Source: a virus. From it: a stretch of 48,051 nt of DNA. The stretch spans positions 1 to 48,051 of the IMG/VR virus record IMGVR_UViG_3300044833_000307; one strand, given 5' to 3'. Positions 6,126 through 32,984 of the stretch are shown piece after piece. The notes beneath the pieces were generated by a model that made no database searches, was not told the DNA's origin, and saw only the letters and a program-made list of their open reading frames with translations. The stretch's first letter is position 1. Each line of letters begins with the position of its first letter. The translations under genes and the position numbers were made by a program.

Positions 6126-6164
6126 GGTGGGCTCCTACCATAAGGTTCTGATAGACTGTCCCCG

Positions 6165-6207
6165 AAAACAAAAACGCCCGCGGTCAAAGAATCTTGAGGG
6201 CGGGCGT
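6165..6207 (-). terminator. Rho-independent terminator of the tmRNA
   Basis: On the minus strand ACGCCCGC (6207-6200) pairs with GCGGGCGT (6181-6174) around an 18-base loop, followed by TTTTGTTTT. It directly follows the tmRNA coding piece. Confidence 0.85.
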
Positions 6208-6475
6208 CTTGCCGTGTTGAGGAACTCAGGCACGGCCTGAGGCTACCTTAAGCGGCAGCGGCCATTGCAAGAGGAGCAGTGGCGTTTATTGGTTTTGTTC
6301 ATTTACGGGAGTTTACTCCCCGGCCCGTGTGCATCCCACGCTTGCAGTCCGTCGAAACCAATTCGGCCCCGCAGAAGTGATACGGGGTAAATGGTGGAGC
6401 CGGGGGTAATCGAAACCCCGTCCGAAAAGCCGCTTAGGTGCCGTGACCTTCCTTGCGGAAGGGAGTTACGAGCGT
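6174..6475 (-). ncRNA. ssrA: circularly permuted (two-piece) tmRNA
   Basis: In transcription order the acceptor piece comes first. It has a CCTTCC/GGAAGG hairpin with a GCAA loop, TTTTCGGACGGGG, T-loop TTCGATT, then CGGCTCC, A, CCA ending at 6392. A 21-nt intervening segment (6391-6371) follows. The coding piece starts at 6370 with GGGGCCG and GGTTTCGACGG, the classic tmRNA 5' end. GGGGCCG pairs with CGGCTCC including the usual G-U at position 3. A tag frame, probably GCC (6283) to TAA (6248), reads ATAPLAMAAAA and ends in the small hydrophobic residues expected of a protease tag. After it comes an H-type pseudoknot (6241-6212: CTCAGG, loop CCGTG, CCTGAG, then CACGG). A terminator closes it. 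This order is the permuted form. The resume codon is inferred. Confidence 0.93.
6248..6283 (-). other. tmRNA tag-peptide reading frame
   Basis: Inside the tmRNA coding piece the frame ending at TAA 6250-6248 reads back as A-A-A-A-M-A-L-P-A-T-A. The likely resume codon is GCC after AATAAAC. An upstream TGA in this frame limits the tag to at most 17 codons. The alanine-rich hydrophobic end fits a ClpXP-type degradation signal. Confidence 0.75.
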
Positions 6476-6481
6476 ACCTGT

Positions 6482-6510
6482 ATAATACTTCAAAAGACTG
6501 GATTTTGCAA
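6482..6510 (-). promoter_or_regulatory. sigma70-type promoter of the tmRNA
   Basis: TTGCAA (6510-6505, 4 of 6) is followed after 17 bases by TATTAT (6487-6482, 5 of 6) on the minus strand. The expected start is near 6475, just before the acceptor piece. The -35 box begins right after the stop of the 374-aa gene. Confidence 0.75.
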
Positions 6511-30655: not shown

Positions 30656-31264
30656 ATGGGAACAGTAGTCGGGAAACTTTTAAGAACTAACGCACTCATT
30701 GATATGGCCGCATACGACTATCTGAATCAAGTCATCGTCGCCACGGCCCTCATCCAGCCGTACGACGACGATTCCTTCTACAACCCGGTGGACAACTCCC
30801 ACAGCGGCTACGCGGCCGACGGCACGCTGTACGAAAACGGAGCGCAAATAGCGTCCCCCGCCCCCATCCCCGCGCCCTTCGCCAGCTACACGGCCTCGTG
30901 GGCGTCCGAAACCCCCGGCCCCTACCGGAGCGCGACGGCGGCCTTCCCGCAGGCAGGGTTGATTTTGCTTTCCCCCGTCGCCCTGACGATCCTTGACCAA
31001 GGCACCCCCACGCTCGACGCCGCGCAGCTTCCCCTGTGGATGCAGTTCCTACTATCAGATTTTTACCTTTTACCTAATAATTTTGATGGGGCTCTCAATG
31101 GTTGGACTCCATCGGGATTGGCGTATGCGGACGGCCTCATCAGCGTCATCTACACGCCAGACGCCGGAAACCAAACTGGAGGCACACCTCCGAACGCAAA
31201 CTCCATCATGGTTCTTACGATTGATTTTTCTCGGGACGCGGCTTACCTAGATGTTGCGGTATAA
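30656..31264 (+). CDS. virion-type hypothetical protein, 186-202 aa
   Basis: Opposite in strand to all other structural genes. ATG 30656 gives MGTVVGKLLRTNALID ahead of MAAYDYLNQVIVATALIQPY; ATG 30704 is the alternative, and neither has a strong ribosome binding site. The composition (Pro/Ala/Thr/Tyr-rich, beta-like, GWTPSGLAYADGLISVIY) fits a tail-fibre tip or decoration protein. Only 8 bases separate it from the start of the divergent zinc-ribbon gene. Confidence 0.6.
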   Translation: MGTVVGKLLRTNALIDMAAYDYLNQVIVATALIQPYDDDSFYNPVDNSHSGYAADGTLYENGAQIASPAPIPAPFASYTASWASETPGPYRSATAAFPQAGLILLSPVALTILDQGTPTLDAAQLPLWMQFLLSDFYLLPNNFDGALNGWTPSGLAYADGLISVIYTPDAGNQTGGTPPNANSIMVLTIDFSRDAAYLDVAV

Positions 31265-31282: not shown

Positions 31283-31483
31283 GTGCGCAAACAAGACTGG
31301 AATTATTTGCTGGAGCCCGCGACAGAGGAAGAACTAGATTCCCTCTACAAATTCGTGCTGGGCACGGGGATGGAGTGCAAATGCGGACGGCAGATGTGGT
31401 TCTCCATCGAGGGCTACTGGTGCCCGCATCGCTGGTGGGGCAACTATTGGAAGCACAACCCGACCACTCGGTTTGAAATCTAA
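31283..31483 (+). CDS. small zinc-ribbon-like protein, 66 aa, GTG start
   Basis: Reads MRKQDWNYLLEPATEEELDS with GTG as the assumed start; there is no clear ribosome binding site, and the frame is open upstream to 31265. The core CKCGRQMWFSIEGYWCPH has C-x-C and C-x-H pairs 14 residues apart, suggesting zinc binding. It follows the gene at 30656 by 18 bases on the same strand and is the last gene before the repeat array. Confidence 0.6.
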   Translation: MRKQDWNYLLEPATEEELDSLYKFVLGTGMECKCGRQMWFSIEGYWCPHRWWGNYWKHNPTTRFEI

Positions 31484-31497
31484 GTCGCAAAATTTGT

Positions 31498-31527
31498 TTG
31501 GCATTTTTGCCCTATCCATGGTATTAT
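31498..31527 (+). promoter_or_regulatory. sigma70-type promoter of the hairpin-repeat array
   Basis: TTGGCA (31498-31503, 5 of 6) is followed after 18 bases by TATTAT (31522-31527, 5 of 6). The predicted start is about 31534, exactly where the first repeat begins. The GGCA and TGCC around 31500-31511 can also pair. Confidence 0.6.
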
Positions 31528-31533
31528 GTTACG

Positions 31534-32177
31534 GTTGAATTAGTATGAGCCGAAGGACTTCTTCTTCGGACTAATGCTCTTTGAGCACCAACAGATAAGT
31601 TTGAATTTAGTATCAGCCGAAGAGTATCTTCGGACCAGCCGTTGCGACGGAACAAATCCATGGTTAGTACGAGCCGAAGAGTGTCTTCGGACACCTGTTC
31701 CCTAATATCAGTTTGAATCAGTATAAGCCGAAGAATATCTTCGGACGACGGTCTTCGTCGAGCTTCCTTGGGATCGACCACCGCGTGGCCGTCGCAATTC
31801 GTCCCCTTGCCCAGCGCCCACGACTCAACCCGTCTCGATTGCCTCGATGCCCTCGACTCCAGTACCGAATGCCTGCTCACGCTGAAGTGGAAGTTTGAAT
31901 CAGTACGAGCCGAAGAGTATCTTCGGACGATGAAGTTCATTTTCTCTCAGAAATTGAGTTTGAAAGAAAATATGGCTACAAATACAAATACAAAAGCGGT
32001 TTGAATTAGTATCAGCCGAAGACTTCGGACTGGTCGAAGCAGGACACCTCCCGCTAATTGGACGTAAAGCCGAAGAGTATCTTCGGACTTGGGAAACGGA
32101 TTCGCCGCAAACTTGACCACCAGAAAAATCGTGCGCCATGAGTTTTAATTAGTATGAGCCGAAGAACATCTTCGGAC
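31534..32177 (+). repeat. array of eight hairpin repeats with unequal unique spacers
   Basis: Each unit has a left box GTTTGAAT(T/C)AGTA(T/C), two or three variable bases, then stem GCCGAAGA, a 4-base loop and TCTTCGGAC. Stems start at 31549, 31616, 31673, 31728, 31909, 32015, 32069 and 32158. The loop varies (GTAT, GTGT, ATAT, ACAT) while the stem stays; copy 1 has an expanded loop and copy 6 has lost four loop bases. Copies 3 and 7 have degenerate left boxes. Distances are 67, 57, 55, 181, 106, 54 and 89. Several spacers hold a small hairpin of their own (GCTC/GAGC, CCGT/ACGG, GACG/CGTC, CTCA/TGAG). No gene fits 31484-32201. It lies between converging gene sets behind its own promoter. Confidence 0.85.
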
Positions 32178-32201
32178 TGCTCAGTCTGGCACTGTGCAAT
32201 T

Positions 32202-32984
32202 CTAATCCAAAATTTGATATAAGTTGATCAAGCTGTCGTGCACGTAGCCGCTGCGGCAGGCGATAGAACCACGCCGAGAACAAGTATCCCAAATATACAG
32301 GGGATTACTGAGCTTGCTGCGTTCGAACGCATAATGGAGCAGCAACTGGGCCTTCGGATCGCCCGTTACCGCCGTGTCCCACAACGCAGCGCACTTGGGA
32401 TTTTGTAAATGGGCATATGCCAGCACGTCGCCCACCTCCACCGCCTGCCCCGAGGGGAGGGGCAGCACGCTGCCAACCCGGTTCTGCATCCCGCCGCTTT
32501 GCGTCACCAAGTCAAAGAAGAACGCCAGCACCCGCGTGCTGCCCAAATAGTCGGGGCAGAACTTCGCCGACAGTATTTTCGCACGCTTGAGGATTCCATC
32601 GGTGGCGATTTGGATTTGGGCGGCGACGGACTCCGGCTGGCTTAGGAACGCCACCCAGCATTGCTTGGCCGCGGGGTCGATTTCCTTGCTGCCCACGGCG
32701 ATGAAATGGTCCAGGCACCACTGGACCGCTTCATGCGGCTTCAACAGCGCGAAATGGTGGATGTCGGATTTGAAGAACGACTGGGCTTTGTCCCAGCCCA
32801 TGCGCGTGCCGATGCTTTGCAGCAGAGGCTGGAGCGACCCCTGCCCGGCGTTCCATTGCAGTATGCCCGCGCTCAGCCCCTGGCCGTCGAAATTGCCGCT
32901 GACGGCCGCGTAGGACGCCCCGCCGCCGTTCTCGAACGCCCCGCTGACCCTGACGCACGTCTCCAACAAATCTTGGTCTCCCAT
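32202..32984 (-). CDS. endolysin, lysozyme-superfamily-like, 260 aa
   Basis: ATG 32984 has AGAGG six bases upstream; begins MGDQDLLETCVRVSGAFENG. The N-terminal domain has FENGGG (probable catalytic Glu18) followed by VSGNFDGQGLSAGILQWNAG and GSLQPLL, the signature of a family of phage and bacterial peptidoglycan hydrolases distantly like GH46/lysozyme folds. No signal peptide is seen, so release would need a holin. The stop is TAG, with an in-frame TGA seven codons on. The upstream 130-aa gene ends in TAG in the same frame, so suppression there would fuse the two proteins. Confidence 0.75.
   Translation of the reverse strand: MGDQDLLETCVRVSGAFENGGGASYAAVSGNFDGQGLSAGILQWNAGQGSLQPLLQSIGTRMGWDKAQSFFKSDIHHFALLKPHEAVQWCLDHFIAVGSKEIDPAAKQCWVAFLSQPESVAAQIQIATDGILKRAKILSAKFCPDYLGSTRVLAFFFDLVTQSGGMQNRVGSVLPLPSGQAVEVGDVLAYAHLQNPKCAALWDTAVTGDPKAQLLLHYAFERSKLSNPLYIWDTCSRRGSIACRSGYVHDSLINLYQILD

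Follow-up and report, generated by a model that had tools for sequence, protein, structure and literature searches.

The 48,051-nt window analysed here (the 48-kb window) is a viral record representing a fragment of a jumbo phage genome. It is collinear, in reversed orientation, with a segment (approximately 141-186 kb) of a 332-kb IMG/VR contig, with mostly 35-70% protein identity per gene. Two window proteins retrieve dozens more contigs of the same family, with sizes up to 463 kb. In the phage collection, two conserved window proteins match one record only, namely Tunturi_5, a cultured Tunturiibacter phage of 308.7 kb from soil in Finland. Because of this kinship, an Acidobacteriota host is plausible for the phage carrying the array described below. 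The homologous block of Tunturi_5 is annotated as tail-fibre, baseplate and tape-measure genes. Within this tail-fibre/baseplate region of the window, an array of hairpin repeats fills a junction between convergent genes (Table 1). The gap is bounded by a 202-aa gene and a 66-aa, Cys/Trp-rich ORF on one side and by a convergent 260-aa gene on the other. This slot is variable among the relatives, in which other genes occupy it. Relative to the 202-aa gene, the orientation of the 260-aa gene differs between these phages, and both arrangements occur. An assembly chimera was considered and rejected, as the flanking genes derive from one collinear phage family.

Table 1. Features of the hairpin array and its surroundings (positions in the 48-kb window)
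Feature	Position	Strand	Description
202-aa protein gene	30656-31264	+	Conserved across the phage family
66-aa Cys-rich ORF	31283-31483	+	Just upstream of the array; relatives not found
Promoter-like match	31498-31527	+	Sigma-70-like, TTGGCA-18-TATTAT, TG ahead of the second hexamer; not above chance
Repeat 1 (r1)	31532-31571	+	Variant: 8-bp stem with one G.U pair, 4-nt loop, 3 nt more between half-sites
Repeat 2 (r2)	31599-31635	+	One extra T in left box; 7-bp stem; loop GTA
Repeat 3 (r3)	31656-31692	+	Without distal left box; loop GTG
Repeat 4 (r4)	31710-31746	+	Loop ATA
Longest spacer	31747-31892		146 nt, 62% G+C
Repeat 5 (r5)	31892-31928	+	Loop GTA; highest match to the covariance model
Repeat 6 (r6)	31998-32030	+	4-nt deletion; 5-bp stem; half-sites 1 nt apart
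Repeat 7 (r7)	32052-32088	+	Left box largely gone; loop GTA
Repeat 8 (r8)	32141-32177	+	Loop ACA; approximately 25 nt past where the convergent 260-aa gene stops
260-aa protein gene	32202-32984	-	Conserved across the family; faces the plus-strand genes preceding the array

Genes for tmRNA, tRNAs and TnpB/Cas12f-like proteins were also noted in the phage family. A permuted tmRNA gene is located in a gap between two phage genes on the minus strand of the window (6248-6451; ARAGORN 6157-6484; Rfam RF04321, 93.8 bits, E 5.5e-17) and encodes the tag ATAPLAMAAAA. Permuted tmRNAs were also predicted by ARAGORN in two related phages, with tags ANAPKAMAAHA (L052) and ANSNVALPIAA (L148). A tRNA with anticodon CTA, thus of the amber-suppressor type, lies at 1732-1805 on the minus strand (Rfam 63 bits) and has an encoded CCA. 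Related phages also encode such CTA tRNAs (L185, twice in L052, and L148); TAG nevertheless continues to serve as a stop codon in the window. Related jumbo phages encode dozens of tRNAs per contig, with several clusters grouped by amino acid (L043-L059, L145-L156, L185-L199). Three related jumbo phages (G018, G023 and G008) have open frames resembling TnpB/Cas12f, 354-382 aa in length (PF07282).

Repeat detection identified one family of eight hairpin repeats at 31532-32179, all oriented along the plus strand. The unit of approximately 37 nt can be written as GTTTGAATYAGTAYNAG-CCGAAGA-NNN-TCTTCGG-AC, i.e., a left part followed by the stem CCGAAGA/TCTTCGG enclosing a 3-nt loop and then AC. The AGCC of the successive hairpins begins at 31548, 31615, 31672, 31726, 31908, 32014, 32068 and 32157, corresponding to start-to-start intervals of 67, 57, 54, 182, 106, 54 and 89 nt. 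The core GCCGAAGANNNTCTTCGGAC has six plus-strand matches in the 48-kb window, together with six mirror readings on the minus strand, and all of them are located within the array; the expectation from shuffled sequence is 0.20 ± 0.47 matches. Perfect 6-bp hairpins are likewise enriched in the array region (13, against a mean of 1.06 and a maximum of 6 in shuffles). A covariance model was built from seven copies, with the eighth left out, and searched across the window. The left-out copy was recovered at 34.6 bits. All eight copies score 34.6-55.5 bits, the highest match outside the array scores 14.7 bits (E 0.1), and no further copies were found by the model in the 48-kb window. The hairpin array is real and non-random, with all repeats in one orientation, and the number and place of the repeats that had been read from the sequence alone are confirmed.

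The copies differ in their loops and not in their stems: among the copies of the array, 0 of 84 stem positions are changed versus 4 of 18 loop positions (Fisher p = 7e-4), as the sequence-only reading had described. Its further suggestion of selection on a structure was not confirmed. The stems are invariant and the loops are free, but the stem letters are identical in seven of the eight copies, so that mostly a sequence is conserved and compensatory information comes from r1 only. The only compensatory event is the 8-bp stem with 4-nt loop of that copy, a paired insertion whose G.U pair belongs to the plus strand, since the minus strand would be mismatched there. Invariant stems with varied loops could result from gene conversion or from duplication followed by selection. 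The half-site distances of r1 to r8 are 8, 5, 5, 5, 5, 1, 5 and 5 nt. In both r1 (+3 nt) and r6 (-4 nt) a hairpin still forms, although that of r6 is weak (-4.4 kcal/mol), and r6 may simply be a dead copy. The conservation of the flanks is one-sided: to the left of the hairpin stand AGTANNAG and a GTANNAG consensus, to its right an invariant AC. The region as a whole folds slightly better than shuffles (z = -1.8 for the plus and -2.8 for the minus strand), and the identical stems of different copies can also pair with one another.

These observations bear on whether the array is read as DNA or as a folded strand. Palindromes clustered in a non-coding gap could be operators for a phage protein involved in partition, replication, packaging or genome compaction, and irregular spacing is possible in parS clusters. 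The constant half-site distance of a dimer operator was not found, and distances of 8, 5 and 1 nt are unsuited to one dimer; a hairpin can accommodate a changed distance, which would be awkward for a single dimeric DNA-binding protein. Conservation of the flank on one side also speaks against operators. Moreover, an essential cis site should persist in the family, and no relative, including Tunturi_5, has the array. We consider such a DNA-binding array rather improbable. The half-site changes that still allow folding, together with the one-sided flanks, are more in keeping with a folded, directional strand than with a dimer operator. With the contrast between loops and stems and the tolerated length changes, the simplest such strand would be a plus-strand RNA that is read by a protein. 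The roles proposed at the outset thus separate to some extent: those based on a folded strand (small RNAs or a sponge) are mildly favoured, the DNA-binding array less so.

The spacers are unique and measure, in array order, 27, 21, 18, 146, 70, 22 and 53 nt, in line with the unequal spacing noted beforehand. No spacer has a significant match in the 3.3 Mb of sequence fetched, mostly related phage DNA, and the longest one has none in the window either. The private mini-hairpins that the sequence-only reading had assigned to several spacers are not significant when the eight downstream 24-mers are compared with shuffles (combined p = 0.12). The intervals of the array share neither a helical phase nor a reading frame. 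A promoter-like sequence does point into the array, and it matches at 10 of 12 positions, but one such match was found where 1.3 ± 1.4 are expected per region in shuffles. Because the match is at chance level, the description of the array as promoter-driven is unsupported. The left box was also considered as a phage promoter and rejected, with GAATNAGTA being absent elsewhere in the window. Terminator-like U-tract sites (a GC stem followed by a T run) do not occur within the array on either strand, and the array is accordingly not a set of intrinsic terminators, as had been proposed.

Since the phage has a tRNA of the amber-suppressor type, TAG was also tried as a sense codon. The array could be a coding remnant whose units specify short peptides, repeated from unit to unit and read from the minus strand (SEDTLRLILIQT) or, with TAG readthrough, from the plus strand (NQYEPKSIFG). 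The units are open in those frames, TAG and CAG alternate at the same codon, and a CTA tRNA is encoded by this phage and again by relatives. Against this, the intervals modulo 3 are 1, 0, 0, 2, 1, 0 and 2, stop codons occur between the units, and TAG terminates 5 of 25 ORFs examined. The 260-aa gene itself ends at TAG (LD-stop), with its C-terminus where the relatives end too. Coding was rejected as main explanation based on the inconsistent frames, the stops between units and the use of TAG as a stop, and we regard it as very improbable.

Related arrays were searched for in viral and prokaryotic sequences. The exact hairpin pattern had no match among IMG/VR viral contigs. In 25 related contigs, no array was detected by pattern or by covariance model R1, which gave weak single matches (E 0.09-0.44); the one match that was inspected (contig G011) has no array around it. 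The array was not found in Tunturi_5 either, bringing the total to 26 related jumbo-phage records. A scan for repeated 9-mers in nine largely fetched relatives revealed no hairpin array; its k = 11 version recovers the array of the window itself. The few clusters from the relatives' scan were judged by spacing and motif and mostly have multiple-of-3 spacings or tRNA-arm-like motifs. Among 84,980 prokaryote genomes, the exact hairpin gave 11 matches, one per genome and without left box, which we judged to be isolated chance matches. R1 gave one isolated match of 26.8 bits, without surrounding repeats, in 397 genomes of one Acidobacteriota order, likewise judged to be chance. Left-box patterns yielded 23 and 20 single matches, none with a hairpin, which apparently are coding or chance. 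The unit had only chance matches in phage and plasmid collections and nothing near threshold in Rfam. The array is therefore private to this phage in the collections searched. Absent related arrays and dispersed copies had both been named beforehand as observations that would speak against that first reading; related arrays were indeed not found, yet the copies are not dispersed in the 48 kb.

A private palindromic repeat may also have arisen as a REP-like hairpin, whose copies spread locally through the non-coding junction of the convergent genes by template switching or duplication. Such an array would have at most a generic 3'-end effect, i.e., a block of 3'-5' exonucleases or a slowing of polymerase for both convergent genes. 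The array shares with REP/BIME elements (PMC3733652; RAYT, PMC2817692) its short, palindromic and extragenic repeats and their position between the 3' ends of genes, and both r1 and r8 are within approximately 50 nt of a stop codon. The unit is palindromic, of REP-like size and absent from all relatives searched, and the degraded left boxes of r3 and r7 and the indels of r1, r2 and r6 resemble decay. In contrast to REPs, which alternate in BIMEs, the repeats keep one orientation throughout. The flanks of the unit lack the GTAG/CGTC tag, the Y1 transposase (Y1_Tnp, PF01797) is absent from the window and 24 related contigs, no additional copies occur across the 48 kb, and the invariant stems with free loops suggest selection. 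The relatives' junctions that were read (about 480 to 1200 nt) do not contain any hairpin array, so that none is needed there, which also counts against a 3'-end effect of this kind. A REP-like origin is unlikely in itself, and we consider it almost as likely as the decoy RNA discussed below.

A regular CRISPR, already dismissed in the sequence-only reading, is contradicted by the degenerate left boxes and by spacers of 18-146 nt; near-identical repeats and near-constant spacers were not found. No matches to defence families were detected in 10 window proteins and no Cas12f/TnpB domain in the window, which is part of a much larger genome. The array could instead be a CRISPR-repeat mimic or a degenerate type V-like array, in which repeats of 36-37 nt with a 3' hairpin occupy a host Cas protein in a Racr-like manner or serve as irregular guides. 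In its length and in the hairpin at its 3' end, with AC after it, the unit resembles tracrRNA-independent Cas12 repeats, a resemblance that serves as a lead only. Phage solitary repeat units (SRUs) are described as lacking cas genes and directly following a promoter, and candidate Racrs that target type V-A are functional (PMC10651486). Huge phages carry compact CRISPR arrays with a median of six repeats (PMC7162821). Similar to Racr/SRU elements, the array is phage-encoded and intergenic, with a hairpin unit of CRISPR-repeat size, no nearby cas genes and a promoter-like match upstream. It differs in having eight units rather than a solitary one, in the chance-level promoter, and in that neither CRISPR-repeat similarity nor a host match was found: the unit gave isolated chance matches in prokaryote genomes, no array in the 397 Acidobacteriota-order genomes and nothing near threshold in Rfam. 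With the CRISPR arrays of huge phages it shares a jumbo phage genome, unique spacers and compactness (eight repeats here), whereas the broad range of spacer lengths, the degenerate repeats, the lack of cas genes in the window and the lack of spacer targets in the 3.3 Mb of fetched sequence set it apart. The idea of a mimic is attractive by its architecture and lacks sequence support; we consider it quite improbable.

Overall, the array departs from CRISPRs, REPs, terminators and dimer operators in at least one tested feature each, and membership of the Racr class cannot be shown. Two further systems consist of repeated hairpins. CsrB/RsmZ are multi-hairpin protein-sponge RNAs, and their resemblance to the array lies in the many identical hairpins on a single RNA, with the potential to titrate a protein. 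The loops of the array lack GGA and are its variable part, and an Rfam match was not found, in contrast to these RNAs. The PeSL cassettes of T4-type phages (Arbiol 2010 and Comeau 2014, cited in PMC4503421) are likewise repeated stem-loops in variable regions of large phages. As these cassettes are outlined by the citing paper, the array differs in having no promoter per loop, one array instead of scattered copies and no genes in its spacers.

Since a folded single strand is favoured, our best guess is a multi-site decoy RNA: tentatively, and with low confidence, we interpret the array as a transcribed multi-hairpin non-coding RNA acting as a protein decoy (sponge). The plus strand would yield one non-coding RNA, or processed pieces thereof. 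Each unit of approximately 37 nt would offer a single-stranded box (AGTAYNAG), followed by a hairpin of 7 bp with a 3-nt loop that ends in AC. Eight copies with free spacers would make an RNA with many identical binding sites, and these repeated sites could titrate an RNA-binding protein or a nuclease, from either the host or the phage. We infer transcription, its strand, protein binding and titration as the purpose of the array. The single orientation, the invariant stems, the tolerated half-site changes, the one-sided flanks, the lack of a helical phase or frame and the variable accessory slot favour a decoy RNA. Against it stand the chance-level promoter match, a region that folds just slightly better than shuffles, and the near absence of covariation among seven identical stems, for which recent duplication or gene conversion could be an alternative cause. 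The absence of the array from relatives further implies that its function is not one conserved across the phage family. It is more doubtful still that the array represents an undescribed family, namely a dedicated eight-hairpin jumbo-phage RNA for titrating a host protein of defence or RNA processing, possibly as a multi-copy CRISPR-repeat mimic.

If the array is transcribed and bound by a protein, it would broaden the small set of known phage decoy RNAs, which are single CRISPR-repeat mimics, to include multi-copy hairpin arrays. The jumbo-phage group to which it belongs includes a cultured Acidobacteriota member, in which such a role could be tested. Even if the array is inert, it indicates that private hairpin arrays arise in the tail-region accessory slot of these phages.
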